Positions 1 through 11,920 of a stretch of DNA of 11,920 nucleotides are shown here, one piece after another; position 1 is the stretch's first letter; each line of letters starts with the position of its first letter. Under the pieces are notes generated by a model that saw only the letters and a program-made list of their open reading frames with translations, made no database searches and was not told the origin of the DNA. The DNA is from Dehalococcoidia bacterium (lineage in GTDB: Bacteria; Chloroflexota; Dehalococcoidia; GIF9; AB-539-J10). Location of the stretch: the NCBI GenBank assembly GCA_023128875.1, contig JAGMDB010000110.1, forward strand, positions 1 through 11,920. Reading direction: 5' to 3'. The position numbers and the translations under genes are program-made.

Positions 1-53
1 GCGGCTGCCTTCTAAGCAGCGGGTCGTGGGTTCGAAGCCCGCCAGGGACGCCA
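1..53 (+). tRNA. tRNA-Arg (anticodon UCU), 5' part cut off by the window edge
   Basis: Only the 3' portion is present. The anticodon arm has a perfect 5-bp stem (GCTGC at 4-8 with GCAGC at 16-20) around the loop CTTCTAA, so the anticodon is TCT at 11-13, which reads AGA (Arg). The T arm follows (GTGGG at 26-30, loop TTCGAAG, CCCGC at 38-42), then the 3' acceptor strand CAGGGAC, discriminator G50 and an encoded CCA at 51-53. The acceptor and D arms lie before the window. The recombinase gene begins about 100 bp downstream, so the 3' end of this tRNA is the likely attachment site of an integrated element. Confidence 0.93.
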
Positions 54-153
54 CAAAGCTAACTAGAGCCACTGCTTGACAAAAACCGCCCCAAAATGTC
101 ACCACCAAAAGCCATCCTCTACTGTAAACTACCAGTATGAGGAGTTTGAAGTG

Positions 154-1083
154 ATGACACTCCAAGATGCACTGATAGCCTATCGCACTTATGCCCGGGC
201 TGAAGGCAAAAGCCCAAAAACTATCCGCTGGATTATGTCAAGTGTCACCTACTTTGCCGACTTCCTCAGCCCCGACAACCAGGATATAGCCAGCATTTCC
301 AGCAATGACCTTAGACGCTTTATCATCGCCCTTCAAGGCAAGCATAAGTTCAGCAATCATCCCTATAACAGACCTCAACAGGCCAAGCTGTCACCACAAT
401 CTATCGAGGCCTATGCTAGGGCTATCAGGGCATTCTTTGGCTTTCTCCATCGGGAGGGATTTATTGAAAGCAATCCGATGGAAAAAGTGAAAATGCCCAA
501 AGTACCGGAGATATTAGTGCCTACTTTTTCGCAGAAGGAGATTGAGAAACTCTTAGCCCAGCCGGACAAGCATAGCAATGAAGGCTTTAGGGACTACTCC
601 ATTCTGTTGACTTTTTACGACACTACAGTCAGGCTCTCAGAACTTGCCGAGCTTAAGGCTGCCGACATTGACCATGAACAAAACCTTTTCAAGGTTATGG
701 GCAAGGGTAAAAAGGAGCGCTATGTCCCATTCGGCCGGCGGGTTGCCAGAGCCCTGATGAAGTACCAGCTAAAGCACCGTCCGGAGCCTGTAGGCACCGG
801 TAACTTTTGGCTTAGACGTGATGGGCAACCATTGCCAGCTGGTAGGATAGAGAAGCTTGTCAGTATGTATGGTAAGAAGGCGGGATTTAAACGTTGCTAT
901 CCCCACAAGCTGCGACATACGAGTAGCGTCATGTATCTGAGGAATGGTGGCGATGTTTTCTCTCTGCAAAGCAAGCTAGGCCATAGGAACCTCGTTATGA
1001 CCCGTCGCTATAGCAACCTTGCGGACAGTGACGTCAGGGATAGCCACCTCAGGCATTCGCCTGGCGATAGGCTGCATCTTTAA
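154..1083 (+). CDS. Tyrosine recombinase/integrase (XerC/XerD-like phage integrase family)
   Basis: A site-specific recombinase that would cut and rejoin DNA at attachment sites through a phosphotyrosine intermediate. The reading frame is open from a TTG at 76, but the better start is ATG154 (or GTG151), preceded by ATGAGGAG at 137-144; this gives 309 aa, the usual XerC/D size. The N-terminal SAM-like core-binding domain covers roughly residues 1-115 and the catalytic domain roughly 125-300. The full catalytic set is visible (numbered from ATG154): R160 in TVRLSEL, K184 in MGKGKKER, H251 and R254 in HKLRH, H277 in LGHRN and the nucleophile Y286 in RRYSNL. It appears intact and functional. It lies directly after a tRNA-Arg 3' end in the same orientation, the standard arrangement for an integrative element. 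Its 3' end overlaps the convergent zinc-ribbon gene by about 35 bp. A dedicated Xer of the host is less likely given the tRNA position and the accessory genes behind it. Confidence 0.94.
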   Translation: MTLQDALIAYRTYARAEGKSPKTIRWIMSSVTYFADFLSPDNQDIASISSNDLRRFIIALQGKHKFSNHPYNRPQQAKLSPQSIEAYARAIRAFFGFLHREGFIESNPMEKVKMPKVPEILVPTFSQKEIEKLLAQPDKHSNEGFRDYSILLTFYDTTVRLSELAELKAADIDHEQNLFKVMGKGKKERYVPFGRRVARALMKYQLKHRPEPVGTGNFWLRRDGQPLPAGRIEKLVSMYGKKAGFKRCYPHKLRHTSSVMYLRNGGDVFSLQSKLGHRNLVMTRRYSNLADSDVRDSHLRHSPGDRLHL

Positions 1084-1582
1084 GATGGTAGTCGATTGGG
1101 AGAGAGCGACCCGAGCAGTTTGCGTCAATGTTAACTACTAGCTTGGGATACGTCAGTTTGGAGTCGAAATTTGTTTCCTTTATCCTTACACCGGAACTGG
1201 TGACAAAGTAATCCACTGCCGGCGGTGCTGGAAGGCTATGGACACCGCCACCGGGATGGTAGACAACACTGATATAATGGGGAGTGACTCGTATAATACG
1301 AATATCCCCCAGTTCCCTTTTCTGCCGCTGGAGCTGCCTCTTCCCATAATTGAACACACCTTGAAGTTTGGCGAAATGTTGCTGGCTGGAGGTCAATGGC
1401 TCGCCGAGCGTTACTTCCTTCTCTGGCTGGGGAACGGGCTCAAAGGAATAGCCTCGCCATCCGCAATCCCTCTTCTTACAAATAAACATGCCTCCCACGT
1501 TCCGGTAAAGCTCACCGCCACAGACAGGGCAAGGTCTTCTCGTAACAGCACCTGGCTGAAAATCATCGCTAGTCAGTGACAT
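1049..1582 (-). CDS. Unrecognised protein with an N-terminal zinc ribbon
   Basis: A 177-aa protein on the minus strand. The N-terminus carries four cysteines in a zinc-ribbon pattern: C18-x2-C21 (CPVCGGEL), then C35-x4-C40 (CKKRDCGWRG). The rest has a Gln/Arg/Lys-rich stretch (about residues 78-92) and a probable beta-rich C-terminal part with no family I recognise. The start ATG at 1580-1582 is preceded on its own strand by an AGGGG-type ribosome site about 7 nt upstream and by a TATAAT promoter about 45 bp upstream. The zinc ribbon suggests nucleic-acid or protein binding, but no function can be assigned. It is convergent with and overlaps the recombinase 3' end. An open frame on the plus strand (1238-1579) covers the same DNA but lacks recognisable motifs. 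Confidence 0.7.
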   Translation of the reverse strand: MSLTSDDFQPGAVTRRPCPVCGGELYRNVGGMFICKKRDCGWRGYSFEPVPQPEKEVTLGEPLTSSQQHFAKLQGVFNYGKRQLQRQKRELGDIRIIRVTPHYISVVYHPGGGVHSLPAPPAVDYFVTSSGVRIKETNFDSKLTYPKLVVNIDANCSGRSLPIDYHLKDAAYRQANA

Positions 1583-1620
1583 TTGAAGCCCCTTTTTGTC
1601 AGTGTCCTAAGTCAACATTC

Positions 1621-1629
1621 TGCTATGAT
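1621..1629 (+). promoter_or_regulatory. Putative extended -10 element for the accessory genes
   Basis: TGCTATGAT at 1621-1629 fits an extended -10 (TGn plus TATGAT, 5 of 6). There is no good -35 at 16-18 bp. A second option is TATAAG at 1635-1640 with TCAACA at 1612-1617, 17 bp apart. Either would drive the gene starting at 1682. It shares bases with the opposing TATAAT. Confidence 0.33.
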
Positions 1630-1656
1630 TATAGTATAAGACGCTCAATATATAAA
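1628..1656 (-). promoter_or_regulatory. Putative promoter of the zinc-ribbon gene
   Basis: On the minus strand a perfect -10 TATAAT (ATTATA on the plus strand, 1628-1633) is spaced exactly 17 bp from a weak -35 TTTATA (plus-strand TATAAA, 1651-1656; 4 of 6 consensus). It lies about 45 bp upstream of the minus-strand ATG at 1582. It overlaps a plus-strand extended -10, so the two divergent genes may compete for polymerase. Confidence 0.45.
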
Positions 1657-1681
1657 ATCAAGAACTAGTGGGAGGTTTCTC

Positions 1682-1966
1682 ATGGAGATGAAAAACCTGA
1701 AGAAAAGCGAAGAGGAGGTAACCATTCCTGCGGACGAGGCATGCAATACGGCGCACGCTTTACGGACCATACGCCTGCTAGAAAAGGGGGCTCGACAGGC
1801 CTTTTTGGACGGCGATGTCACTGTCGAGGACACTAAAACAATCTTGGATCGAGTGAAGGAAGCCAACAAGCGTTGTGAGACTGGTAATGTTAATGCCTGC
1901 CTTATCCTCCAGGAGCTGGTTAAGGGTCTGACGGGTCTGACGGAAGGTATATCAGAAACTAGTTGA
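1682..1966 (+). CDS. Small unrecognised helical protein of the accessory region
   Basis: A 94-aa protein with a strong ribosome site (GGGAGG at 1670-1675, 6 nt before ATG1682). It is highly charged and appears all-helical: the segment around residues 20-60 (AHALRTIRLLEKGARQAF, then TKTILDRVKEANKRC) has heptad-like spacing. It contains three cysteines (residues 21, 61 and 69 approximately). No signal peptide, membrane segment or known domain is visible. Its TGA stop overlaps the upstream end of the next open frame, so it is probably cotranscribed with the HTH gene that follows. Its position right behind an integrase suggests an accessory role in the element, but no function can be assigned. 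Confidence 0.68.
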   Translation: MEMKNLKKSEEEVTIPADEACNTAHALRTIRLLEKGARQAFLDGDVTVEDTKTILDRVKEANKRCETGNVNACLILQELVKGLTGLTEGISETS

Positions 1967-2007
1967 CGTTCTCAGGTCTGAAAAAACACTCGCTCGCTTG
2001 CAGGGGT

Positions 2008-2574
2008 ATGAACTCTGAAGCGATGTCCGAAACAAAGAGGCATTATGCTATTAGCAAAAAGGCTGCCATATTCCGTCTTTTTGAGGAGGGGAAGCGCCCC
2101 ATGGATATTGCCGATTCTTCCGTGTCGCGAAAAACTCTCTACCAATATTTCTGTGAATGGAGGAAGGAGAGGGGATTACAGGGGAGGCAGACTGGCTTCG
2201 CTATCAAGAAGTTCAACAGAAAGGCATACCTTGACTCTCAAGAAAATGAGAGGCAGAAGAAAGAAAGGGAGAGCATCACCAGGCTTGTTATGGATTGGGA
2301 GGTTATATCAAAGGCCTTAAAGGGGTGGGATGGGGACCTTGAACATACAGGTCAGAGGATCTATTTGCCGGGAAGTCGGGGTTATAGATGGCTTAGGCAT
2401 GTTTTGAGACTCAGAAAGGATCCGCTTGGGAAAAGCCTTTACATGACGAGAGAGGAAAACCTGACTCTGTATCAAAAATGGGTGGAGCTTGGTGGGAAAG
2501 CCCAAGATAGAACCGATTTCAAGAAACTCTGCCGTGAGGAGGGGGTAGGGTTTCCTTCTGATATTAAAGCCTGA
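2008..2574 (+). CDS. HTH-domain DNA-binding protein of the accessory region
   Basis: A likely DNA-binding protein of 188 aa if started at ATG2008. Around residues 15-55 it shows a homeodomain/resolvase-like HTH: KKAAIFRLFEEGKRPMDIA, then SRKTLYQYFCEWRKERG as the recognition helix and following helix. A basic linker follows (KKFNRKAYLDSQENERQKKE), then an unrecognised domain rich in Trp, Tyr and Arg (GYRWLRHVLRLRKD). The start is uncertain: the frame is open from TTG1963, which overlaps the stop of the gene before it; ATG2008 has AGGGG only 1 nt upstream; ATG2023 gives a natural N-terminus (MSETKRHYAISKK) but has a weak ribosome site. The same HTH type occurs twice in the next gene, so both may be regulators or replication/excision factors of the element. 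No enzymatic motif is visible. Confidence 0.68.
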   Translation: MNSEAMSETKRHYAISKKAAIFRLFEEGKRPMDIADSSVSRKTLYQYFCEWRKERGLQGRQTGFAIKKFNRKAYLDSQENERQKKERESITRLVMDWEVISKALKGWDGDLEHTGQRIYLPGSRGYRWLRHVLRLRKDPLGKSLYMTREENLTLYQKWVELGGKAQDRTDFKKLCREEGVGFPSDIKA

Positions 2575-2661
2575 CAAAAAGAAAGGTGACAACCCAATTT
2601 ACCGCTCAAAGGTGCTAAAATATCAATTTTTATAGCTGCTTACCGAAACTGCTAAACCATA

Positions 2662-2667
2662 TATAAT
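2662..2667 (+). promoter_or_regulatory. Possible -10 box before the tandem-HTH gene
   Basis: A perfect TATAAT lies at 2662-2667, 20 bp before ATG2687, in the 112-bp gap after the previous gene. No convincing -35 sits at 16-18 bp; TTACCG at 2640-2645 with a 16-bp spacer is the best candidate. The distance to the ATG would leave a very short leader containing the GGGAAGGAG ribosome site. Confidence 0.3.
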
Positions 2668-2686
2668 TAAACTGGGAAGGAGTATT

Positions 2687-3085
2687 ATGACTGAGTGTAA
2701 TTGCAATTACTGCACTATTAATCCCAATGCCTGGGAAGAAGATAAGGAAATTTTGCGCCTGCACAAGCTAGGAACGCCAGCTGTTGAGATTGCGGCCAGG
2801 CTGAATGTTTATCCAGAGCTTGTCCGTCGCCGTCTCCGCAGAGCTGGCTTTGAGCCTGTCCCCGCCCCAAAGTTCCTCAAAGCTGAGGAGCTGCGCAGCG
2901 ACATAATAAGACTCCATCAACAAGGGCTGCCGCCTCTAAAAATAGCAGAAAGGCTTGGTGTTGAATCTACTGTTGTCTATCGGCGTCTGCGGGACGCAAA
3001 GCTTGAGCCTCGCCCTAGCCCCGAAGATATAAAGAGAACCCTAGAATCACTTGACGAAATCATAGCACTGGGGAAGAGACATTAG
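2687..3085 (+). CDS. Tandem-HTH protein; frame ends early at a probable frameshift
   Basis: As it stands the frame encodes 132 aa, with a good ribosome site (GGGAAGGAG) just before ATG2687. Two homologous HTH units lie in tandem: residues 21-61 (EILRLHKLGTPAVEIAARLN, then VRRRLRRAGFEP) and residues 72-112 (DIIRLHQQGLPPLKIAERLG, then VVYRRLRDAKLEP), 51 residues apart. The pattern matches the homeodomain-like HTH found in resolvases and transposases, so DNA binding is likely. The N-terminus has three close cysteines (C4, C6, C9) that could bind metal. The frame stops at 3083-3085, but removing one base near GGGG at 3070-3073 lets it continue to 3257 with plausible helical protein, giving 189 aa. 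The gene is therefore probably frameshifted, by mutation or by sequencing error. It follows another HTH gene in the same direction. Confidence 0.72.
   Translation: MTECNCNYCTINPNAWEEDKEILRLHKLGTPAVEIAARLNVYPELVRRRLRRAGFEPVPAPKFLKAEELRSDIIRLHQQGLPPLKIAERLGVESTVVYRRLRDAKLEPRPSPEDIKRTLESLDEIIALGKRH
2747..3022 (+). repeat. Internal duplication: two HTH units in one gene
   Basis: The two units (2747-2869 and 2900-3022) align over 41 residues without gaps. Shared positions include the IxRLHxxGxPxxxIAxRL core and the RRLRxAxxEPxPxP end. The similarity is at protein level; the DNA copies have diverged. Confidence 0.7.
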
Positions 3086-3257
3086 CTATCTTGCCAACAG
3101 AAGTCTGGACCTTACCGATGCCCTCAAGGCGTGCGTCAAGATGCTTGACACCGAGAAGCTGCCCAAGCTTCTTGAGCAAGCCGATACATGTATCAAAAAC
3201 ATTTCCAATGTGATGACCGGAGCGGTAGCCCAAGCAACGGAGAGACCAGGGAAATAA
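3066..3257 (+). pseudogene. Probable displaced 3' part of the tandem-HTH gene
   Basis: In the frame shifted by one base from the upstream gene, the DNA is open from the TAG at 3063-3065 to the TAA at 3255-3257. It has no ATG or ribosome site near its beginning. It encodes a well-behaved helical segment (RSLDLTDALKACVKMLDTEK, then LPKLLEQADTCIKNISNVMT). Joined to the preceding frame by dropping one G at 3070-3073, the junction reads LDEIIALGRDISYLANRSLD with no break in character. An overlapping minus-strand frame has no recognisable domain. This is direct reading of the sequence; that the two parts form one gene is inference. Confidence 0.6.
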
Positions 3258-3297
3258 GGGTCAGAGAAGTAATTTAAGCAGGTTCGGTGGGCAAGCT

Positions 3298-3726
3298 TTG
3301 GAGGAGAAGACACTTTCAGACTTCGTTGATTTTTCAGGTGTTCTAGTGCAGAAATTTGATAATGTGCAGATAGATGGCAATACCTTAGTCTTAGTCTACG
3401 ATAATCAGAAAACAGAACTGCAAATCAAAGGAGATACTGGACTTATTGCTCGCACAATAGCAGAGGAGTTTGGAGCAAGAGGGCTAAAGCTAGAAAAGCG
3501 CAGAATTAGCCTATCTGAACTTCGTAATCTACAAGTGATTGACTTCGAAAAGCAAGCAAAGCTTAAAGACTATATAGATGATTTGGTCTTTACTCTATAC
3601 TTCAATGTTCCTTTGAAAGAGGTCGGTTTAGACAAGTCAGAAGAAATACAGAAAGCTTGCTCAGCGAGTAGATACTACCAACTTGGTAGTTGTGTTCGCA
3701 GGTTTGCACCATCAACATTAGGTTAA
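3298..3726 (+). CDS. Unrecognised protein, possibly truncated or displaced at its C-terminus
   Basis: A 142-aa frame starting at TTG3298, with GGTGGG 6 nt upstream as a weak ribosome site; no better start is visible. The N-terminal half looks like alternating strands (VLVQKFDNVQIDGNTLVLVY, then KTELQIK), followed by a helix (LIARTIAEEFGARGLKLEKR). The second half is helical up to about residue 120 (SEEIQKACSAS). The last 20 residues coincide with a perfect 17-bp inverted repeat at 3674-3690 and look unrelated, so the original C-terminus may have been lost. No signal peptide, membrane segment or known family is evident. It is the last open frame of the accessory part; no gene is seen for 360 bp after it. 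Confidence 0.5.
   Translation: MEEKTLSDFVDFSGVLVQKFDNVQIDGNTLVLVYDNQKTELQIKGDTGLIARTIAEEFGARGLKLEKRRISLSELRNLQVIDFEKQAKLKDYIDDLVFTLYFNVPLKEVGLDKSEEIQKACSASRYYQLGSCVRRFAPSTLG
3674..3690. repeat. Perfect 8-1-8 inverted repeat
   Basis: ACTACCAA (3674-3681), a single C, then TTGGTAGT (3683-3690): a 17-bp perfect palindrome with a one-base centre. The centre is too small for an RNA hairpin loop at full stem length, so a dimeric protein binding site or chance is more likely than a terminator. It lies inside the 3' end of the preceding frame. Confidence 0.55.
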
Positions 3727-3987
3727 GCGAACTGACTCAATCACTGTCGCAAACCACTCTTTCTGAGGCAAATCCTTCTCAAGCACTTTTCATCCGAGCC
3801 CTATTGACACTACATGCTCATAGTAAAATGAAATCAGTGCACATTCCGTCAAATTGTAGATTATCGTCATTGTCGGTATCTTAGACTAATGAGACTTGAT
3901 TTGTTTTGGGTCTTTGATTTCTCTTTTCTGTCGAGACTTAAAGCAGTAGGCTGTTGGCATGATGGGTTAATATTTTGTTAATTTATA

Positions 3988-4016
3988 TTGCATTTTTTTA
4001 ATAAATATGCTATAAT
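3988..4016 (+). promoter_or_regulatory. Putative promoter of the YheO/DauR-like regulator
   Basis: A perfect extended -10, TGC plus TATAAT (4008-4016), sits 17 bp after TTGCAT (3988-3993; 3 of 6 consensus). The TSS would be near 4023, leaving a leader of about 65 bases before TTG4089. The -10 lies at the end of the first copy of a 21-bp direct repeat, so a protein bound there would block polymerase. Confidence 0.55.
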
Positions 4017-4066
4017 TAAAGCAATATTTCTATTGGTTGTCAATATTTTTTAATAAATATGGTATA
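3994..4066 (+). repeat. Two 21-bp direct repeats, one mismatch, 52 bp apart
   Basis: Copy one at 3994-4014 and copy two at 4046-4066 share TTTTTTAATAAATATG, then C or G, then TATA. The single difference is C4010 versus G4062. The start-to-start distance is 52 bp, close to five helical turns, which would put both on the same face of the DNA. Copy one overlaps the -10; copy two lies just upstream of the ribosome site. This suggests a pair of operator sites, perhaps for autoregulation by the adjacent regulator, but the AT-richness raises the chance of coincidence. Confidence 0.6.
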
Positions 4067-4088
4067 TTTTTTAACGGAGAATATCTAA

Positions 4089-4772
4089 TTGGAAAAGAGT
4101 AGCTCTAAAATTAGGTTGAGCAAGGAAGATAAAGCAATTTTCCGTAGTTTAGAGGCAATCGTAGAGGGTGTAGCTGAAGTATTTGGGAGTAATTGCGAAG
4201 TGGTTCTTCATTCTTTAGAAGACACCAGCCGTTCGGTTGTTAAGATAGTAAATGGCAATGTCACTGGGAGAAAGGTAGGGTCTCCCCTAACTAATTTTTT
4301 GGCAGAGATACTAAAGAAAGCTGACTCGTTAGAAAAAGATGTGATTGGTAGCTATTATAATAGACTAGACGATGGCAGGCTATTAAAGTCGGTTTCTACA
4401 CTAATTAGAAACACCCACGGCAAACCTATTGGTTTTATGTGTATTAACATCGATTTATCTGCCCCTTTGTTAGACTTCCTAACAGGATTTCTGCCCATGC
4501 ATGGCGAATCTTCTAAGAATATAATCGAACATTTCCCAATAAACATTAAAGACTTGATCTCCAAGACGTTGGAGATAGTAATGACTGACGTAAATAATCG
4601 GAGAGAGGTTCCCTCTTCTGAGAGAAACAAGTTGATTACACAGGAGTTATATAAAAGAGGACTCTTTAATGTAAGAGGAGCCATTGATTTGGTTGCGAAG
4701 GAAATGGGTGTCTCAAGATACACGGTGTATAACTACATTAGGGAAGCAAAGTATGAAGAACTGCTTCTGTAA
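4089..4772 (+). CDS. YheO/DauR-family transcriptional regulator (PAS-like domain plus HTH)
   Basis: A 227-aa cytoplasmic DNA-binding regulator. The start is TTG4089, supported by CGGAGA at 4075-4080, 8 nt upstream. The N-terminal YheO-like PAS domain (about residues 15-130) shows the family pattern CEVVLHSLEDTSRSVVKI, NGNVTGRKVGSP and later GKPIGFMCINIDLS. The C-terminal DauR-like HTH (about residues 165-225) ends with the typical GVSRYTVYNYIREA recognition helix. Family members sense a small molecule and control nearby catabolic or uptake genes; DauR controls D-arginine use in Pseudomonas. Here the gene precedes ridA and the cluster in the same direction, so it probably regulates that cluster and itself. 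The effector cannot be deduced. Length and domain order are normal for the family. Confidence 0.88.
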   Translation: MEKSSSKIRLSKEDKAIFRSLEAIVEGVAEVFGSNCEVVLHSLEDTSRSVVKIVNGNVTGRKVGSPLTNFLAEILKKADSLEKDVIGSYYNRLDDGRLLKSVSTLIRNTHGKPIGFMCINIDLSAPLLDFLTGFLPMHGESSKNIIEHFPINIKDLISKTLEIVMTDVNNRREVPSSERNKLITQELYKRGLFNVRGAIDLVAKEMGVSRYTVYNYIREAKYEELLL

Positions 4773-4774
4773 TG

Positions 4775-4811
4775 AAAGGAGGTGATTTCGGAGAGAGAAT
4801 AGATGATGTAA
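4775..4811 (+). other. Ribosome site followed by a two-codon ORF (ATG ATG TAA)
   Basis: Between the regulator and ridA there is a consensus ribosome site AAAGGAGGTGAT (4775-4786), a second GGAGAG (4790-4795), then ATGATGTAA at 4803-4811. ATG4803 has GGAGAG 7 nt upstream, so a Met-Met peptide could be started and stopped. The same nine bases behind a GGAGGTGA site recur at 6711-6730. It may be a start-stop leader, the relic of a lost gene, or chance. Confidence 0.3.
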
Positions 4812-4879
4812 ACAATTACAGATGGCAACTAATCTTAGAAGTAGGGATGTTTTTAGAATGAAGAAAGGAGAATGTTTAG

Positions 4880-5269
4880 ATGGCAGAACTAAAAAAAATA
4901 GAAACAGACAAAGCACCGGGAGCTGTAGGGCCTTACTCTCAAGGTACACAGATAGGCGGATTTGTATTTGTTTCCGGTCAACTTCCCGTTAATCCAAAAA
5001 CTGGACAAAAGGTTGAAGAAGACATTAAGGTTCAAACAGACCGCGTCATAGAGAACATAAAGGCAGTTCTCGAAGCCGCAGGTTCAGACCTAAGTCAAGT
5101 TGTTCGCTGTGATGTTTTTTTGAAAGACATGAACGATTTTAAGGATATGAACGAAGTTTATGCCTCCAAATTTGTTACGGAGCCGAAGCCAGCGAGACAA
5201 GCCGTTCAAGTTGGACGACTGCCAATTGATGCCATGGTTGAGGTCTCCTGTATCGCCTATAAGGGGTAA
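4880..5269 (+). CDS. ridA: RidA family reactive imine/enamine deaminase (YjgF/YER057c/UK114)
   Basis: A 129-aa protein that hydrolyses reactive enamine/imine intermediates released by PLP enzymes and amine oxidations, forming trimers in the cytoplasm. The family pattern is complete: GPYSQG near the N-terminus (Y19), VSGQLPVNP at 31-39, the substrate-carboxylate-binding R106 in PARQAVQVGRLP and the active-site E121 in AMVEVSCIAY. Full length is normal. AAAGGAG lies 9 nt before ATG4880. It sits 24 bp before the flavoprotein gene and so is probably cotranscribed with it. Its presence implies that the pathway makes imine-type intermediates, for example by oxidation of an amine or lyase action on an amino acid. 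The presence of R106 favours the canonical RidA activity over non-deaminase paralogues. Confidence 0.93.
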   Translation: MAELKKIETDKAPGAVGPYSQGTQIGGFVFVSGQLPVNPKTGQKVEEDIKVQTDRVIENIKAVLEAAGSDLSQVVRCDVFLKDMNDFKDMNEVYASKFVTEPKPARQAVQVGRLPIDAMVEVSCIAYKG

Positions 5270-5293
5270 CAATTATTTGAAGGAGGGGCAATT

Positions 5294-6055
5294 ATGAAGA
5301 TCAAAGTATTAGGGATTAACGGAAGTGCCAGGCGGCGAGGAAATACCTCGATCATGATTAACGAAGCTTTACAGGGTGCATCTGAGCTAAAAGATGTGGA
5401 AACAGAATATATTGCTTTAGCAGAGCACAAGATTTTGGGAGGGTGCCTAGCGTGCTATATTTGCCATAAAGAACCCAGTTTAGAGAAGCTCTGTAGGGGT
5501 TACAAAGAACCAGACGATGTTAATATGATAGTGCGAAAGATGTTAGAGGCAGAAGCATGGATTATCGGCACCCCTGTTTATTTCGGGGGAATGACAGCAC
5601 AGTTAAAAGCATTAATAGACCGAACACATCCTGTCCAGCCCTGTGGACGAGCATTTAGAAATAAGGTTTGCGGTGTTGTTACTATGGCTGTTGAAAGAGC
5701 AGGGGGGGCAGAGGCGACAATGGATGACATACGCCATTGGCTTGGGAACATGGACGCAATCTACATTGGTAGCGGCCCTGCACGACCTACCCCAGCGTGT
5801 GGTAGTTTCTGGGGAGCTCAAGGTGTTCAAGGATGGCCTAACTATATTCCTACAACTAAACCAGAGGCCCGTAGTGCAGTCAAGCAGGATATTATAGGAA
5901 TGCAGGCGGCGAGAAACTTAGGAAGGCGGGTTGTCGATTTGGCAAAGGCGGTTAAAGCCGGCTATGCGTCTTTAGGAGAAGGAGAGACATATTGGGGGTA
6001 TGGCCCTGTAATAGAAATCCACGGCGGAAAGTATGATAAGTATCAAGAGAAGTAA
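5294..6055 (+). CDS. Flavodoxin-fold NAD(P)H oxidoreductase, iron-sulfur flavoprotein-like
   Basis: A 253-aa protein of the NADPH-dependent FMN reductase/flavodoxin-like superfamily. The FMN phosphate loop is GSARRRGNTS (10-19). The second FMN-binding segment is IIGTPVYFGGMTAQLKALID at roughly 90-109. Between them is a cysteine cluster, C51-x2-C54-x2-C57 with C67 ten residues further on. Iron-sulfur flavoproteins carry CX2CX2CX4-7C there for a 4Fe-4S cluster; here the last gap is nine, so cluster binding is likely but not certain. The C-terminal extension (about 155-253) is longer than in simple FMN reductases and contains Pro, Gly and Trp-rich segments (ACGSFWGAQGVQGWPNY). AAGGAGGGG lies just before ATG5294. 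It could supply or accept electrons for the pathway or reduce the substrate ring. The reaction is unknown. Confidence 0.85.
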   Translation: MKIKVLGINGSARRRGNTSIMINEALQGASELKDVETEYIALAEHKILGGCLACYICHKEPSLEKLCRGYKEPDDVNMIVRKMLEAEAWIIGTPVYFGGMTAQLKALIDRTHPVQPCGRAFRNKVCGVVTMAVERAGGAEATMDDIRHWLGNMDAIYIGSGPARPTPACGSFWGAQGVQGWPNYIPTTKPEARSAVKQDIIGMQAARNLGRRVVDLAKAVKAGYASLGEGETYWGYGPVIEIHGGKYDKYQEK

Positions 6056-6114
6056 AGGTAAGCCAAATTTGTGGAAACTTTAAAAGTAAAAGGATAAAAG
6101 GAGGACAAATAAAA

Positions 6115-6699
6115 ATGGCGGAAGAGAAAATGAAATACGCAAGTGTTGTTGCTGAGGCTAAAAAGAAATGGGATAATTTAACCGATAACGAGAAGGCAAT
6201 CTCCCATCGTGTTTTTAGAAGAGGAATAGAGCGCTGGATTTTAATGTGGGATATTTTAAAGGCGATCGAGGAGAAGTTTGGTATTAATGTGTGGGATATA
6301 GTAAGAGAAGAGATCTGGAAGCACTCTTTCGCGGCAGGACAGAACTTAGCTAAGAAATATGAGAGGCATGGCGTGGTAGAGTTATATGATGCCTTTAATT
6401 CGCAATTTGAGGGTTTGGTCCAGGCTGAGTGGCTTGAATTGAACGACAAAGTTTTACACAAGTGGAATCACGCCTGCCCGAATTATCAGCATCTTAAAGA
6501 CTTGGGGAAGACCGAAGAAGAAATAAAAGAAATGGCACCATACTATTGTCTACAGGACATAGGTATTATGACCGGGTTTAACCCGGATCTTGAGGTTTTC
6601 CCTCAATCGCGTTTATTGATGGCGGGTGACCCCCACTGCACTTACCGTGTTGAGGACCACGGTGAGAAATCCGGTAAAAAGTTTGGTTTTGTAGTATAA
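6115..6699 (+). CDS. L-2-amino-thiazoline-4-carboxylate (ATC) hydrolase family protein
   Basis: A 194-aa cytoplasmic protein resembling the ATC hydrolase family. The characterised Pseudomonas member opens the thiazoline ring of L-ATC on the way to cysteine. The C-terminus gives the clearest match: GFNPDLEVFPQSRLLMAGDP followed by HCTYRVE, the family's Gly-Asp-x-x-Cys-x-x-Arg ending. The middle contains HACPNYQHLKDLG and YYCLQDIGIMTGF, where the conserved cysteines of the family lie. The N-terminal half is helical (IERWILMWDILKAIEEKFG). AAAAGGAGG lies about 10 nt before ATG6115, 59 bp after the flavoprotein gene. A second protein of this family begins at 11553, so the two may act in sequence or together. 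Most members of the family are uncharacterised, so the substrate should not be assumed to be ATC. Family assignment is from remembered motifs. Confidence 0.72.
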   Translation: MAEEKMKYASVVAEAKKKWDNLTDNEKAISHRVFRRGIERWILMWDILKAIEEKFGINVWDIVREEIWKHSFAAGQNLAKKYERHGVVELYDAFNSQFEGLVQAEWLELNDKVLHKWNHACPNYQHLKDLGKTEEEIKEMAPYYCLQDIGIMTGFNPDLEVFPQSRLLMAGDPHCTYRVEDHGEKSGKKFGFVV

Positions 6700-6710
6700 A
6701 CCTACACTTT

Positions 6711-6730
6711 GGGAGGTGAAAATGATGTAA
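6711..6730 (+). other. Second ribosome site plus ATG ATG TAA
   Basis: GGGAGGTGA (6711-6719) is followed at once by ATGATGTAA (6722-6730), with 5 nt between GGAGG and the ATG. It lies 46 bases before the ATG of the TRAP lipoprotein gene. It resembles the element at 4775-4811 in sequence and in its place between two genes. Confidence 0.3.
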
Positions 6731-6776
6731 TAAAGTATTTTTAGCAGACCAAAAATCTAAGCAAAGGAGTTTTTAG

Positions 6777-7868
6777 ATGAAAAGGAAAATATTGTTAAGT
6801 ATGTTGGCTTTGTTGTTAGCCATCAGCTTGGTTGCTATCGGCTGTGCTAAACCAGCACCAGCCCCAGCGCCAGCCCCAGCGCCTACGCCAGAACCAATAC
6901 CAGCAGGCCCAGAGTATACGTGGAGGTGGCAGTGTCTATATCACCCTGGTCTTTCGTTTGACTATTGGGGTAAAGGAATTGCTGACATGATTGAGGAAAT
7001 GTCTGGAGGGCGGATTGAAATTGAGGTGTTCCACGGGGGTGCCTTATGCCCAAACAAGGAGATATATACCGCTCTAGGTCAAGGGCAGTTTGAGATGGCT
7101 ACGAATGTTGGTGCCTTTTGTGCTGGCATTATACCTGTAGGATACATTGAGTTTACCCCGCCTGGTGGTCCTAGAACCGGGGAAGAACTAGACTTGCTGT
7201 TTTACAACTACGGATGGCTTGAATTGCTGCAACAAGTTTATAATACAGGCAACATCCATTACATCGCTCAGAACCCGTGCGGTTGGCGCAACTTGGTTTC
7301 GACAAAGCCGATACGTAGTGTAGATGACCTCAAGGGTATGAAGGTAAGGTGCACCGGATTAGATGCGTTATTGTTAGAGAGACTAGGGGCAGTGCCAACT
7401 TATATACCTACAGGGGACATTTATACAGGTCTGGCATTGGGTACCGTTGATGCCAGCCTTTATGGTGGCCCAGCCACGCACTGGGACCAGAAGCTTATGG
7501 AAGTCGTTAAGTATGAAATACTGCCCAACATTGAGACAGCTTCCTCTAATACACTTATAAATCTGGATGTGTGGGACTCACTGCCAGAAGACCTTAAACT
7601 CATAATCCAGGTAGCAGCTCGTTACCAGGGTTCAGAAGGCTATCGTGCACGCGAGATAGAGTGTCGTGACCGCATTGAGAGGATGAAGAAAGAGTATGGC
7701 ATCGAGTTCATAGTGCTGCCTGAATCTGAGGTAGCTAAGATACGCGCCGCCGGTATAGAAGTCTTGAGGGAGAAAGCTGCGGTGGATCCCACTACTGCTA
7801 AAATGTTGGAGATAATGGAAGATGCCATGGAGTACTTCGAGTGGAGATACGCTGGAATTATAAGGTAA
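6777..7868 (+). CDS. dctP: TRAP transporter solute-binding lipoprotein (DctP family)
   Basis: The extracytoplasmic binding protein of a tripartite TRAP carboxylate transporter, 363 aa. The N-terminus is a lipoprotein signal: KRK, a hydrophobic core and lipobox VAIGC with C23 as the lipidation site. An Ala-Pro repeat linker (about 24-42) follows, which would tether the domain to the membrane. The DctP core then shows the expected features: LKGMKVRCTG with R191, the Arg that usually pairs with a substrate carboxylate, LERLGAVPTYIPTGDIYTGL (199-218) and the G-x-VDA motif LGTVDAS (221-227). Late helices look normal and the length fits. AAAGGAG lies before ATG6777. The permease genes dctQ and dctM follow about 1.8 kb further on, separated by an MmgE/PrpD gene, which is unusual but still supports one operon. 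The ligand is probably a mono- or dicarboxylate; its identity is not deducible. Confidence 0.93.
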   Translation: MKRKILLSMLALLLAISLVAIGCAKPAPAPAPAPAPTPEPIPAGPEYTWRWQCLYHPGLSFDYWGKGIADMIEEMSGGRIEIEVFHGGALCPNKEIYTALGQGQFEMATNVGAFCAGIIPVGYIEFTPPGGPRTGEELDLLFYNYGWLELLQQVYNTGNIHYIAQNPCGWRNLVSTKPIRSVDDLKGMKVRCTGLDALLLERLGAVPTYIPTGDIYTGLALGTVDASLYGGPATHWDQKLMEVVKYEILPNIETASSNTLINLDVWDSLPEDLKLIIQVAARYQGSEGYRAREIECRDRIERMKKEYGIEFIVLPESEVAKIRAAGIEVLREKAAVDPTTAKMLEIMEDAMEYFEWRYAGIIR

Positions 7869-7959
7869 GATTCTGAAGATGGACTGACGGCACTCCTTCA
7901 GGAGGACAGTAGGGGTGGTGTTACCCTAATTGAGGGTGCTGTGGGAAAGATTGTGTTGT

Positions 7960-8018
7960 AAAATTAACAGCATCGGTAGGGAGTGTGATTAGTGTTTCCC
8001 GCTGATGCTGTTAATTTT
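7960..8018. other. Long inverted repeat / stem-loop between dctP and the MmgE/PrpD gene
   Basis: AAAATTAACAGCATC (7960-7974) pairs perfectly over 15 bp with GATGCTGTTAATTTT (8004-8018). The stem can extend inward with G-U and G-C pairs and a further GGGA (7979-7982) with TCCC (7997-8000), leaving a 14-base loop. The 3' arm ends in TTAATTTT, and the 5' arm begins with AAAA, so an intrinsic terminator or attenuator acting on either strand is possible, though GC content of the stem is modest. The first possible ATG of the downstream gene (8005) lies inside the 3' arm. The stretch before it (7869-7959) has only a small ACCCT/AGGGT inverted repeat at 7923-7937. Confidence 0.75.
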
Positions 8019-9504
8019 GTGGGGCGTGGCTAGTTATTGTGCTGACTTTAGAAAGGAAAAGTGGGCGGAAGTGGAAGTCGCAAGAGAATTGGCAAGCTTT
8101 GTAGTGAAATCTGGTTTCACCGATTTGCCTGAGCAGATTGTGTGTGAAATGAAACGTGTTTTGTTGGACTCCATTGGCTGTGCCATTGGTGGCCTTATGA
8201 CGGAGAGGGGCAAGATAGTGGTTAAATTAGCCAGGAGATTAGGAGGACCGCAGGAAGCAACTGTGATTGCAACCAACGACAAGGTTTCCTGCGCTAATGC
8301 CGCTTTGGCAAATGGTGAATTAACTAATGCGCTAGAATTCGATGCTTTATCTCGCGCGGGACGGCACGATGCCCCAATAATAATTCCAGCAGCACTGGCG
8401 CTAGCCGAGAGTGTCCATGCTTCGGGTGAGGATTTGATATTGGCTATTGCTCTTGGCTTGGAGATTTCGGGAAGACTCAAATTAGCAGTAGGAGGAATTT
8501 CAACCCCCATTGCCGAAGGCCCTGAGAAGGGTAAAATACGATGGCCAAGGGTTCATGGGTTTAGTGTTATTACCTTGGGGGCGGCGGCTAGCGCCGGCAA
8601 AATTCTGACTCTTAACCAAAAGGAAATGGCTAACGCATTAGGCCTAGCCGGTTGCCTTTGCCCGCCTAGTATAGTGAGAAAGTGGATGGAGACCACGCCT
8701 ATCACCATGAGTAAGTATGGTCCCTGCGGATGGGCAGCTCATGTAGGCGTTATCTCAGCATTGCTTGCTGGGGCAGGATACACAGCAGATACTGGTCTCT
8801 TCAATAGTGAATTCGGCTTCTGGACGTATACTGGCAAAGCTAAAGGAGAGTGGAATATGGAGCCGGTGTTGGAGGGCCTGGGTGCGAAATGGCACTGCCA
8901 TCAAATTTGCTATAAGCAATACCCCTGTGGTGACTGTCTAATTAGCCTCCCGGAGATGCTCCTTCAGATCATGGAAGAAAACCATCTCCAGCCAGACGAC
9001 ATAGAGAGGATAAAAGCCCAGCCACATCCTGTTGCCCAATTTACAGCATGGAGAGAAAATGCGTTGACAACGCCGGACGATTATTGCTTTAACGCCCGGT
9101 ATTTATTAGCTTGTGCAGCCCAAAAGATTGAGCCGACTTATTGGCATGACCCAAATATACAGCGAAACCCGAAGATACAAGAATTCTTGCAGAGGGTAGA
9201 GTTTGCCATCATTATTGATGAGAAAGATTTTGGTTTAGCAAGGCTTGAAGACTCAAGTGCTTGGCAAATGAGGATCGAAGTTGTGGCCAAAGGGAAGAGC
9301 TTTAGGAAAAAGGCATCTTATGTAAGGGGGGCATCATGGCTGCCAGAAGAGTTTAGAATCACAGACGATGAACTCATCAAGAAGTTTGGTGACAATGCCT
9401 CAAGGGTTCTGCCTTTGGATAAGGCTAATAAAGTAACTCGAGCTATACTTGGGATAGAGAAGATGAAAAATGTCAATGAGCTTATGAAAATGCTTGCCTC
9501 ATAG
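8005..9504 (+). CDS. MmgE/PrpD family protein (2-methylcitrate dehydratase/aconitate decarboxylase superfamily)
   Basis: Up to 499 aa from ATG8005. The family includes 2-methylcitrate dehydratase (PrpD), cis-aconitate decarboxylase and iminodisuccinate epimerase. Matching segments are VARELASFVV (25-34), LLDSIGCAIGG (53-63), NGELTNALEFD (103-113) with GRHDAPIIIPAALALAE (119-135), HGFSVITLGAAASAGKI (184-200) and YKQYPCGD (303-310), the counterpart of the family KPYPC motif. The start is uncertain: ATG8005 lies in a hairpin arm and lacks a ribosome site, while homologues usually begin close to VARELA, so GTG8071 may be the true start although its GGCGGA is very close. The canonical DFDDTH is EFDALSRAGRH here, so the activity may differ from PrpD. 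It sits between the TRAP binding protein and permease genes, suggesting that it acts on the imported acid. The exact reaction is not assignable. Confidence 0.88.
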   Translation: MLLILWGVASYCADFRKEKWAEVEVARELASFVVKSGFTDLPEQIVCEMKRVLLDSIGCAIGGLMTERGKIVVKLARRLGGPQEATVIATNDKVSCANAALANGELTNALEFDALSRAGRHDAPIIIPAALALAESVHASGEDLILAIALGLEISGRLKLAVGGISTPIAEGPEKGKIRWPRVHGFSVITLGAAASAGKILTLNQKEMANALGLAGCLCPPSIVRKWMETTPITMSKYGPCGWAAHVGVISALLAGAGYTADTGLFNSEFGFWTYTGKAKGEWNMEPVLEGLGAKWHCHQICYKQYPCGDCLISLPEMLLQIMEENHLQPDDIERIKAQPHPVAQFTAWRENALTTPDDYCFNARYLLACAAQKIEPTYWHDPNIQRNPKIQEFLQRVEFAIIIDEKDFGLARLEDSSAWQMRIEVVAKGKSFRKKASYVRGASWLPEEFRITDDELIKKFGDNASRVLPLDKANKVTRAILGIEKMKNVNELMKMLAS

Positions 9505-9693
9505 TGCGGAGGCTAGGTACTGGTGGGCTATCATCAATTTGAAAAAGCACAAGTAGTAATGCTTACAAAGAGGACATTATACTAACAGTTTTTCAATCGC
9601 TTTAGGACCATACTTAAAGAAATATTATGGGTTAATTATTAAGCAAGCTTGTGTAAAGCTAGGTCTAAAAATTGGTTTAAGCAGAGGTTGCCT

Positions 9694-10206
9694 ATGAAAA
9701 TTTCTTTGAATACTATTGATAACATTAGTAAGGGGTCCGGGCAAGTTGCTCTGTATATGATGCTGGTGATGACGGGGTTAGTGTTTGTCGGTGTAATATT
9801 AAGATATGTGTTTAATGCTCCCTCTAAGTGGATTCCTGAATTATCTCAGTTTCTCTTCGGGACGAGTTTATTGCTAGCCGGAGCCTTTGCTCTTCAGCAG
9901 AATAAACATGTCAGGGTAGATGTAATCGTCAACCAACTTCGACCTAGGCTGCAAGCAATTTTAGACCTTTTTGCTTCACTGTTTTTCTGGGTCTTTTGTG
10001 TCGTGTTGCTGTATAAAGGTGGAGAAATGGCGTGGCACTCGGTTAGCCATTGGGAAACCACAGGAACATTCTGGAATCCCCCAATATGGCCTGTAAAGAT
10101 ATTTATAGTGCTATCAGCTCTACTAATACTCCTGCAGGGTGTAGCTAAAACTATTCGCGATTGGCGCAAACTTGCTGCCCTAAGCGAAAAGGGGAACATT
10201 AAGTGA
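9694..10206 (+). CDS. dctQ: TRAP transporter small permease (DctQ family)
   Basis: The small membrane subunit of the TRAP transporter, 170 aa, with four predicted membrane segments (about 18-36, 50-67, 92-108 and 132-150). Family signatures are RYVFNAPSKWIPEL (37-50, with E49) and the QQNKHVRVDVI segment (68-78, with H72). The frame is open from TTG9649, but ATG9694 is the better start: AGAGG at 9683-9687 lies 6 nt upstream and the N-terminus then matches the usual short cytoplasmic lead. The 189 bp before it, after the MmgE/PrpD gene, holds no gene; a TATACT near 9577 has no matching -35. Its stop overlaps the GTG start of dctM by four bases (GTGA), which implies translational coupling. Confidence 0.92.
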   Translation: MKISLNTIDNISKGSGQVALYMMLVMTGLVFVGVILRYVFNAPSKWIPELSQFLFGTSLLLAGAFALQQNKHVRVDVIVNQLRPRLQAILDLFASLFFWVFCVVLLYKGGEMAWHSVSHWETTGTFWNPPIWPVKIFIVLSALLILLQGVAKTIRDWRKLAALSEKGNIK

Positions 10207-11537
10207 ATCCAGCATTAGTCACAGCAGCCATGTTCGGTATGCTCGTAGTATGTATTTTACTAGGTGTTCCTCTTGCCTTCGCCTTAGGCTCTGTCGGCGT
10301 AATCTTCACTATTGCCTTGTGGGGATGGAATGGTCTATATGTGGTGGGTGCTCGTACCCTGGCTACAATGAGTTCAGAGATTCTAATATGCGTTCCACTA
10401 TTTATTCTCATGGGAGCATTATTACAGTACGCAGGCATGGCCGATGCTCTCTATACAATGGTACATCGATGGGCAGGTAAGCTACCTGGTGCTCTAGCGA
10501 TGGGAACTGTAGTTATATGTTACTTCATTGGTGCTATGTCTGGGGTGACCGGCGCCGCTGCGGTATCATTAGGCCTTATTGCCATCCCCTCCATGCTTAA
10601 GCGTAATTATGATAAAAAGGTAGCAGTAGGAACTGTAGCCGGGGGGTCAACTTTATGCCTTATTGTGCCTCCTAGTATCACCATGGTCCTTTTTTGCGCA
10701 ATGTCCTTGTTGTCAATAGGCCAAATGTTCATAGCCGGGGTTTTACCCGGGGCTGTAATCGCAGGCCTGTTCATAGCTTACTTACTAGTGCAAGGTATAC
10801 GACACCCGGACCGAATGCCTCCGCTTCCGGAGCAGGAAAGGCGAGCAATTACTCTCAAGGATAAGATCACTTCTACAGCGGTGGTGTTTCCTACTCTGTT
10901 CATCATTGCCTCTGTTTTAGGGTCGATTTTTACAGGGATGGCTACTCCTAATGAGGCGGCTGCCGTAGGTGTTGTGGCTACTATAGCGGTGTCTGCCCTT
11001 TATCACCGGCTTAAGTGGAAAGTTATTAAGGGAGCATCCGTTGAAGCCTTGAAGTCCAGCGTTATGATTATGTGGATTTTGGTGGGAGCACATATATTCA
11101 GTTCTGTCTACCAGGCTCTTGGAGCTAACCAGTTTATTGAAGACATACTATTGGGCTTGGGACTAAGTCCGTGGTATGTTCTCGGACTGGTGCTGTTTAT
11201 TGTGCTCGTGATGGGTATGTTTATTGATGCTGCGCCAATCATTGTATTGGTGGTTCCCCTTGTTTTCCCGATAATGGTGTCGCTCGGCTTTAATGCCTTA
11301 TGGTTTGCCATTCTTTTCAACGTCGCCGTGATGATAGGTTACCTGTCACCACCTTTTGGGCTAGTTCTGTTTTACATCAAGGGAGTATGTCCACCGGAGG
11401 TAAGCATGGGAGACATATACCGCTCTGTTATACCATTTATTGTGCTGGAGTTCATTAGTATAGGTATACTTATTGCCTTTCCGAATATAATTCTATGGCT
11501 TCCTCGCTTGGTTATAGGAAGGCGTATAGTAGGATAA
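10203..11537 (+). CDS. dctM: TRAP transporter large permease (DctM family)
   Basis: The large membrane subunit that carries substrate and couples it to a sodium or proton gradient, 444 aa, a normal length. It is almost entirely hydrophobic, with about a dozen membrane segments. Family landmarks are FILMGALLQYAG (67-78), GAMSGVTGAAAVSLG (110-124), GGSTLCLIVPPSITM (147-161) and the TRAP signature GMATPNEAAAVG (245-256), then SPPFGLVLFYIKGV near 380-395. It starts at GTG10203, sharing GTGA with the stop of dctQ. The two permease proteins and the lipoprotein encoded at 6777 make one complete TRAP system. Its stop TAA overlaps the ribosome site of the next gene. Confidence 0.95.
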   Translation: MNPALVTAAMFGMLVVCILLGVPLAFALGSVGVIFTIALWGWNGLYVVGARTLATMSSEILICVPLFILMGALLQYAGMADALYTMVHRWAGKLPGALAMGTVVICYFIGAMSGVTGAAAVSLGLIAIPSMLKRNYDKKVAVGTVAGGSTLCLIVPPSITMVLFCAMSLLSIGQMFIAGVLPGAVIAGLFIAYLLVQGIRHPDRMPPLPEQERRAITLKDKITSTAVVFPTLFIIASVLGSIFTGMATPNEAAAVGVVATIAVSALYHRLKWKVIKGASVEALKSSVMIMWILVGAHIFSSVYQALGANQFIEDILLGLGLSPWYVLGLVLFIVLVMGMFIDAAPIIVLVVPLVFPIMVSLGFNALWFAILFNVAVMIGYLSPPFGLVLFYIKGVCPPEVSMGDIYRSVIPFIVLEFISIGILIAFPNIILWLPRLVIGRRIVG

Positions 11538-11552
11538 GGAGGATATAATTAG

Positions 11553-11920
11553 ATGACCGCTGGAAAGAAAACCGTTGCTTTAAAGGAGGCCGAGGAGGAA
11601 GTCAGGAAGGTTTGTGTAAGGCTAGGGCTTTTACATCTTTCCTTTGCCCAAACTCTGGTTGAGGAGTTGGGAGAAAAGAAGGGGAAAGAGCTAGTCCTGA
11701 AAGCCATCAAAGTTTATGGCACAAAAATTGGTGAGCGAATAAAAGCTAGTGTAACTACTCAAGGACTGGAAAATATTCCGGCAAACTATAAAGGAGACCT
11801 TCCACAATACGGAATGCGGGACCTTACAGAAGTATTAGAGGTAGGCGGGGAAAAAAGGAAGAGGGTCTACGGCTGTGTTATGGGAAAGGTATGGAAGGAG
11901 CTCGGAGAGGATAAGCTGGG
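11553..11920 (+). CDS. Second ATC-hydrolase-like protein, 3' end outside the window
   Basis: The first 122 residues are present; the frame is still open at the window end. TAAGGAGG (11535-11542) precedes ATG11553 by 10 nt and starts within the dctM stop, so it belongs to the same operon. The N-terminal helical pattern LGLLHLSFAQTLVEELGEKK, then GKELVLKAIKVYGTKIGERI, followed by RKRVYGCVMGKVWKELGEDK, resembles the L-2-amino-thiazoline-4-carboxylate hydrolase family: an acidic E-L-G-x-x-K-G motif, A-I-x-x-Y-G, then a Cys followed by W-K-E-L-G. The Gly-Asp-x-x-Cys ending seen in the protein at 6115 would lie beyond the window. A role in processing the TRAP substrate is inferred from position. 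The assignment rests on motif recall and a partial sequence. Confidence 0.66.
   Translation, partial: MTAGKKTVALKEAEEEVRKVCVRLGLLHLSFAQTLVEELGEKKGKELVLKAIKVYGTKIGERIKASVTTQGLENIPANYKGDLPQYGMRDLTEVLEVGGEKRKRVYGCVMGKVWKELGEDKL

Follow-up and report, generated by a model that had tools for sequence, protein, structure and literature searches.

A nine-gene run with two PF14196 proteins

The sequence considered here is a contig from a Dehalococcoidia bacterium (JAGMDB010000110.1; C14 in our numbering), which we analysed over its entire length of 11,920 bases and refer to as the window; the sequence data stop at position 11920. From position 4089 to the contig end, nine genes lie in one run on the + strand in the order YheO/DauR-type regulator, RidA, FMN flavoprotein, ATC1, DctP, MmgE/PrpD, DctQ, DctM and ATC2. 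The names ATC1 and ATC2 stand for two proteins related to PF14196, the family of the L-2-aminothiazoline-4-carboxylate (L-ATC) hydrolases. The gaps between successive genes, from the regulator to ATC2, are 107, 24, 59, 77, 136, 144, -4 and 15 bases, a spacing consistent with co-transcription. A first-pass annotation of this DNA had described genes running in one direction, with short gaps and overlaps, under a YheO/DauR-type regulator, and all the genes it named are indeed found in place on the + strand. The genes and the profile matches that identify them are as follows.

4089..4772, + strand: YheO/DauR-type transcription regulator (PAS_6, 134.7 bits; HTH_22, 64.6 bits)
4880..5269, + strand: RidA-type imine deaminase (Ribonuc_L-PSP, 136.6 bits; TIGR00004, 158.1 bits)
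5294..6055, + strand: NAD(P)H-dependent FMN reductase-like flavoprotein (FMN_red, 108.8 bits)
6115..6699, + strand: ATC1, remote PF14196 protein (27.6 bits)
6777..7868, + strand: DctP, solute-binding protein of a tripartite ATP-independent periplasmic (TRAP) transporter (DctP, 141.4 bits; NF037995, 92.4 bits, cut-off 50)
8005..9504, + strand: MmgE/PrpD family protein (MmgE_PrpD_N, 175.7 bits; MmgE_PrpD_C, 51 bits)
9649..10206, + strand: DctQ, TRAP small permease (DctQ, 102.4 bits)
10203..11537, + strand: DctM, TRAP large permease (DctM, 264.4 bits; TIGR00786, 291.9 bits, cut-off 268.45)
11553..11918, + strand: ATC2, remote PF14196 protein (19.1 bits), truncated at the contig end, with 122 residues present

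ATC1 and ATC2 at the border of PF14196

ATC1 retains the three cysteines of the family, C121, C145 and C175, which correspond to C107, C127 and C156 of the canonical proteins; in ATC2 only the first of the three precedes the contig end. When the frame at 6115 was rescored together with its frame neighbours, it reached 28.1 bits, exactly the PF14196 cut-off. We also compared both proteins with 28 residues that are invariant in 19 canonical L-ATC hydrolase sequences (a separate 12-row profile included one divergent Azospirillum paralogue, so that its scores do not reflect the canonical kind alone). ATC2 shows three of these residues, with 14 falling in gaps, most of them cut away by the contig end. 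In a tree of 33 rows, inferred without L031 and L012, ATC1 and ATC2 lie outside the canonical clade with a fork support of 74/94, but ATC1 forms a long branch in a part of the tree where long branches meet; L012, the frame of which is no PF14196 protein, had likewise been removed before the counts. Judged by sequence, ATC1 and ATC2 are remote members of PF14196, unlike the canonical L-ATC hydrolases. The affiliation to the ATC hydrolases put forward in the first-pass annotation holds as far as the three cysteines of ATC1 are concerned and has to be qualified by the position of both proteins at the border of PF14196. The opening of a C-N or C-S ring, suggested at the same time, is a guess, because both proteins stand at this border, at a distance from the L-ATC hydrolases of canonical type.

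A comparable arrangement on Azospirillum plasmids

Our genome searches reached up to the level of the phylum, other phyla being sampled through plasmids only, for which the PLSDB gene tables are incomplete. Neither ATC1 and ATC2 nor their relatives L004 and L008 had a match among the plasmids. Relatives of L025, a canonical-type PF14196 protein, occur in 85 plasmid records. Fifteen plasmid regions around PF14196 genes were read, of which 14 are annotated, an unannotated Burkholderia region remaining outside the counts. According to the annotation, the same run includes an M20 or Zn-dependent hydrolase gene in 10 of the 14 regions, a transporter in seven, an FAD-type oxidoreductase in six, two PF14196 genes in three and RidA in two. 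The run of Azospirillum argentinense Az39 and A. lipoferum 4B comprises RidA, a cysteine-synthase-like gene, a first PF14196 gene (ATCa), five ATP-binding cassette (ABC) transporter genes, a second PF14196 gene (ATCb), an M20 hydrolase and an FAD oxidoreductase, and that of A. brasilense MTCC4039 consists of M20, an FAD oxidoreductase of the DAO family, ATCa, a transporter and ATCb; RidA is absent from the part examined. ATCa occurs in 16 plasmid records, 15 of them from Azospirillum, and ATCb is located 5.2-5.3 kb from it in at least 12 of these 15. In each of the two ATCa proteins tested, all three cysteines are present, as are 10 of the 28 canonical residues.

Two PF14196 paralogues placed around an uptake system and accompanied by RidA and a flavin enzyme are therefore a recurring arrangement in Azospirillum. 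The window looks like a TRAP and MmgE/PrpD version of it that does without the canonical paralogue, and we infer, by analogy, that the two arrangements may share a function; in sequence, ATC1 and ATC2 are not particularly close to the Azospirillum PF14196 proteins.

Three further observations concern these plasmids. The Azospirillum plasmids L132, L134 and L066 carry two operon types, with ATCa proteins about 45% identical. In Phyllobacterium, a relative of ATCa is found without a transporter or a second paralogue. On a plasmid of the chloroflexotan Leptolinea sp. HRD-7 (L128), a PF14196-like gene adjoins a gene named as a cAMP-binding protein.

The remaining proteins of the run

The TRAP set is complete, with DctP, DctQ and DctM scoring 141.4, 102.4 and 264.4 bits against cut-offs of 23.4, 28.3 and 23.8. 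The five best solved relatives of DctP are 5cm6, 4pet, 4uab, 2zzv, which presumably binds lactate, and 7ug8, named 'Ketoacid-binding protein'. Four of the five (not 4uab) share an aligned Arg and an aligned Glu or Asp, residues that we take to bind carboxylate and metal; the window DctP keeps the Arg and has Leu in place of the acidic residue. Its ligand is probably a carboxylate, and perhaps not a simple keto acid.

Both domains of the MmgE/PrpD protein score above their cut-offs (175.7 bits for the N-terminal and 51 bits for the C-terminal domain, against 32.1 each). For iminodisuccinate (IDS) epimerase, a member of this family, PMC12290011 gives H85, D88, H99, H150, K198 and K266 as putative catalytic residues and proposes an enolate mechanism for the family; PMC7347537 and PMC12259180 list their equivalents in cis-aconitate decarboxylases. 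In the window protein, H99, K198 and K266 correspond to H121, K237 and K304, H85 to N108 and D88 to E111, the last being a position where methylsuccinate isomerase also has Glu; H184 possibly occupies the position of H150, the alignment being unsure there. With H85 lost, the protein does not carry the full residue set of the C4-dicarboxylate isomerases, and a His at this position is likewise absent from all 15 aligned rows, which had been chosen for their closeness to the window protein. We infer an isomerase, epimerase or dehydratase of the enolate type, the substrate of which would differ from a plain C4-dicarboxylate. As a separate observation, the nearest Chloroflexota relatives of the protein (L085, L086, L087, L088, L090 and others), which have no His at the H85 position, make up an uncharacterised subgroup.

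RidA exceeds the cut-off of the Rid family (TIGR00004, 158.1 versus 106.25 bits) and falls below that of the stricter E. coli-type equivalog (114.1 versus 222); named imine deaminases are among its closest solved relatives. In the flavoprotein, C51, C54, C57 and C67 form a CX2CX2CX9C motif, the first three cysteines being present in five and the fourth in all of the six readable class relatives (rows L036 and L040 left out). The compact motif of the iron-sulfur flavoproteins (Isf) is CX2CX2CX4-7C, so that the last spacing is longer in the window protein. The label 'iron-sulfur type' given to the flavoprotein in the first-pass annotation rests on the CX2CX2CX9C motif, and an iron-sulfur cluster in this protein is putative.

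Upstream of the regulator gene lies one further feature.

3994..4069, + strand: two 24-base AT-rich direct repeats, 92% identical, 52 bases from start to start

The repeats end 19 bases 5' of the regulator start codon, and no such pair arose in 1000 dinucleotide shuffles of positions 3880-4090; they may represent an operator or a promoter. Promoter-like and terminator-like sites in positions 3600-11920 are not more frequent than expected by chance (9 versus 14.2 and 7 versus 7.4, respectively).

Distribution of the genes in Chloroflexota

Relatives of ATC1 were found in one other of 41 nearest-relative genomes, four others of 393 genomes of the class and seven others of 400 genomes of the phylum (totals here and below include the window's own genome), with 22-39% identity over the matched part. 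The PF14196 profile at 1e-5 retrieved eight others from 151 genomes, and ATC2 one other from 201, 38% identical. For DctP at 1e-25 there was no other among 251 genomes. MmgE/PrpD at 1e-50 is represented in nine others of 294 class genomes, the best relative (52% identical) coming from G030, a member of the same order, and the flavoprotein at 1e-20 in eight others of 119 class genomes, with 31-43% identity. A genome-contig scan with ATC1 confirmed no relative, and one with the two-row alignment A2 gave, among the matches listed, L043 alone, which is the locus JACQON010000013 of G375, a genome of the same class. In viral contigs there was no match for ATC1 or alignment A2. Alignment A4 found one locus in the IMG/VR viral collection, L103, a contig with a gene for a PF14196 protein of canonical type that shares 54% identity with the Azospirillum one.

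The edge of a putative integrated island

The first-pass annotation began at 4089 and left out the tRNA part and the integrase at 1-1083, which are relevant to how the operon is read.

1..50, + strand: 3' part of a tRNA gene (Rfam tRNA, 30 bits, gathering threshold 29), its 5' end cut by the contig edge
76..1083, + strand: tyrosine recombinase (integrase; Phage_integrase, 108.5 bits), beginning 25 bases past the tRNA end

The anticodon of the partial tRNA was read as TCT, i.e. tRNA-Arg; ARAGORN detects no complete tRNA in the window. The integrase gene is situated next to the 3' end of the tRNA, as in islands targeted to tRNA genes, and the partial tRNA-Arg gene is likely the attachment site. 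Integrase relatives at 1e-40 occur in seven others of the 41 nearest-relative genomes, and a tRNA gene, of differing kinds, is present in five of these seven loci. The 67% identical integrase of G025, a member of the same order, also adjoins tRNA-Arg(tct). The window aligns with the G025 sequence (65%) in the tRNA part and the integrase only; the 12-kb G025 locus matched no other window protein and lacks the cargo. We consider it probable that the operon is the cargo of an island integrated at the tRNA-Arg gene, lateral acquisition being the best reading of its origin.

A further integrase relative, in G026 (L110), consists of two overlapping pieces with internal stops beside tRNA-Lys and appears to be a decayed copy. 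On the - strand, positions 1049-1582 form an open reading frame (177 residues) that weakly matches a zinc ribbon and shares 35 bases with the 3' end of the integrase gene. Four small genes fill positions 1682-3726 between the integrase and the operon; two have no clear family, and the other two show weak or clear helix-turn-helix matches, which in one case include phage DNA-binding families.

Possible function and competing explanations

The reading that we favour, with our confidence in it about evenly divided, is that the nine genes are an operon, related to the ATC-hydrolase type as a variant, that serves the uptake and catabolism of a carboxylic acid with an amino or imino group. The TRAP transporter would import a small nitrogen-containing carboxylic acid. 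The two PF14196 paralogues bracketing the transporter genes would hydrolyse this compound or open a ring in it, and might work as two subunits. The flavin enzyme would perform redox chemistry, RidA would hydrolyse the resulting reactive imine, and the MmgE/PrpD protein would isomerise, epimerise or dehydrate the free acid through an enolate, with the YheO/DauR-type regulator switching the operon. A bolder proposal, which we regard as a long shot, is that the operon encodes a pathway, so far undescribed, for a cyclic amino or imino acid: the two divergent PF14196 proteins would constitute one two-part enzyme and the MmgE/PrpD protein would serve as a racemase or epimerase, comparable with the ATC racemase step of Pseudomonas, so that both TRAP-imported enantiomers would be used; the same two-paralogue principle would then explain the Azospirillum operons.

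Several results weigh against the reading as an uptake-and-catabolism operon acquired with an island. ATC1 scores 27.6 bits against a PF14196 cut-off of 28.1, and ATC2 is below it at 19.1 bits (E 0.0024); ATC1 carries 11 of the 28 canonical invariant residues and is without the other 17. None of 19 PF14196 or ATC-like neighbourhoods of Chloroflexota (9.7-19.9 kb around 11 ATC1 and eight PF14196 matches; one of the 19, L023, is not a true PF14196 locus) has a match at 1e-5 to the window regulator, RidA, flavoprotein, DctP, MmgE/PrpD, DctQ or DctM. In 16 Chloroflexota MmgE neighbourhoods, which come from nine genomes and include two contigs of 4.4 kb, no regulator, RidA, TRAP or ATC match appeared at 1e-4. 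TRAP or MmgE/PrpD genes are found in none of the 14 annotated plasmid regions, and the flavin enzyme of Azospirillum is an FAD oxidoreductase of the DAO family, the one in the window belonging to FMN_red. Finally, the far border of the island does not come into view; within the window, which ends at 11920, no repeat of the tRNA part (1-50) was detected. In the same 19 neighbourhoods there is also no match at 1e-5 to three M20 hydrolases. One of the 16 MmgE neighbourhoods holds a flavoprotein with 29% identity, and four contain genes of the metallo-beta-lactamase, Lar_N, HAD, alpha/beta hydrolase, SDR and aldehyde dehydrogenase families near MmgE.

The first-pass annotation had let its proposal of an uptake-and-degradation cluster depend on the neighbourhood being conserved in other genomes, and the exact gene set occurs in none of the Chloroflexota or plasmid loci examined. 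The cluster is still the best reading, with RidA, two PF14196 genes, a transporter and a flavin oxidoreductase recurring together in Azospirillum; its specific combination with TRAP and MmgE/PrpD has not been found again. A literature search of limited reach, judged from titles, revealed no account of such an operon. The annotation had further suggested, from the lack of a carbamoyl-cysteine amidohydrolase (M20), that the substrate may be different, and there is indeed no such gene in the window up to the contig end at 11920. This absence is uninformative, because the contig ends there and the genome has four M20-family matches on contigs other than this one; two of the four share 24-29% identity with the M20 protein of Azospirillum. 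Such matches are common, as the M20 control gave them in all 14 named genomes.

Three competing explanations were weighed. ATC1 and ATC2 might not be hydrolases and might instead be ligand-binding proteins of a Bet3/V4R/H-NOX-like kind, acting as sensor, carrier or chaperone that holds the imported compound or a metal, with the chemistry left to the flavoprotein, RidA and MmgE/PrpD. A weak model of ATC1 resembles such ligand-binding domains among the matches listed by a fold search; we hold this idea to be doubtful, though deserving attention. A sequence search of ATC1 against PDB gave a best E of 0.047. Unlikely, in our view, is ordinary organic-acid catabolism, in which TRAP would take up a keto, hydroxy or dicarboxylic acid for an MmgE/PrpD isomerase or dehydratase, RidA would be a housekeeping protein and the ATC-like proteins would be incidental. 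It would fit the presence of a 'Ketoacid-binding protein' (7ug8) among the solved DctP relatives and the four-carbon dicarboxylate backbone common to the known MmgE/PrpD substrates, as described in PMC12290011. However, the Leu of DctP where four of five solved relatives have an acidic residue, the Asn at the H85 position of MmgE/PrpD and the inclusion of both ATC-like genes in the run, 59 bases past the flavoprotein gene and 15 past DctM, speak against it.

We find it very improbable that the genes are no functional unit at all, that is, genes brought together by chance on a segment gained by lateral transfer, or an artefact of metagenome-bin assembly. The failure to meet the gene set again in the loci examined is in line with this view, as is the state of the source genome (999,190 bases in 184 contigs, completeness 68.46%, contamination 3.22%); the final 120 bases of the window match no other contig of it. 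Yet the nine genes share a single strand with short gaps, and both the integrase and MmgE/PrpD have their best relative in a genome of the same order, G025 for the former and G030 (52%) for the latter. The window composition (correlation r of 0.796 for 1-3750 and 0.817 for 3751-11920) also falls inside the span covered by 13 further contigs of this genome (0.544-0.915), but this test is weak because the class relative L015 (0.648-0.802) scores like the window.

Should the proposed operon be confirmed, the role of PF14196 would be wider than the one characterised thiazoline hydrolase, MmgE/PrpD proteins without the H85 histidine would gain a context, and Chloroflexota with genomes of about 1-2 Mb would provide a case of laterally acquired catabolic cargo.

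Comparison with known systems

The Pseudomonas route for L-ATC, which according to PMC10821248 comprises ATC racemase, L-ATC hydrolase and carbamoyl-cysteine amidohydrolase, shares with the window the PF14196 proteins at its centre. Unlike that route, the window has no amidohydrolase before the contig end, and ATC1 keeps only 11 of the 28 canonical residues. IDS epimerase and methylsuccinate isomerase share with the window MmgE/PrpD protein the fold family and the His/Lys/Lys set at H99, K198 and K266; the window protein differs from IDS epimerase in its Asn at H85, and its best relative, the 52% identical protein of G030, is uncharacterised. The Bet3/V4R/H-NOX-like domains of PoxR, MopR and DmpR resemble ATC1 according to its weak model, and a similarity of PF14196 with V4R and HNOB has already been published. 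In contrast to PoxR, MopR and DmpR, ATC1 stands alone in a metabolic run, without a DNA-binding or signalling domain.

The Azospirillum operon of Az39 and 4B differs from the window in having an ABC instead of a TRAP transporter, cysteine-synthase-like and M20 genes and no MmgE/PrpD; its PF14196 pair includes a canonical protein, and that of the window does not. The two are alike in that RidA is the first enzyme gene, two divergent PF14196 paralogues bracket a transporter, and a flavin oxidoreductase completes a single run. The little-studied family PF14196 is in this way tied to a recurring arrangement in which two paralogues flank an uptake system accompanied by RidA and a flavin enzyme, and with the Azospirillum operons the two-paralogue idea can be tested in bacteria that grow in culture.

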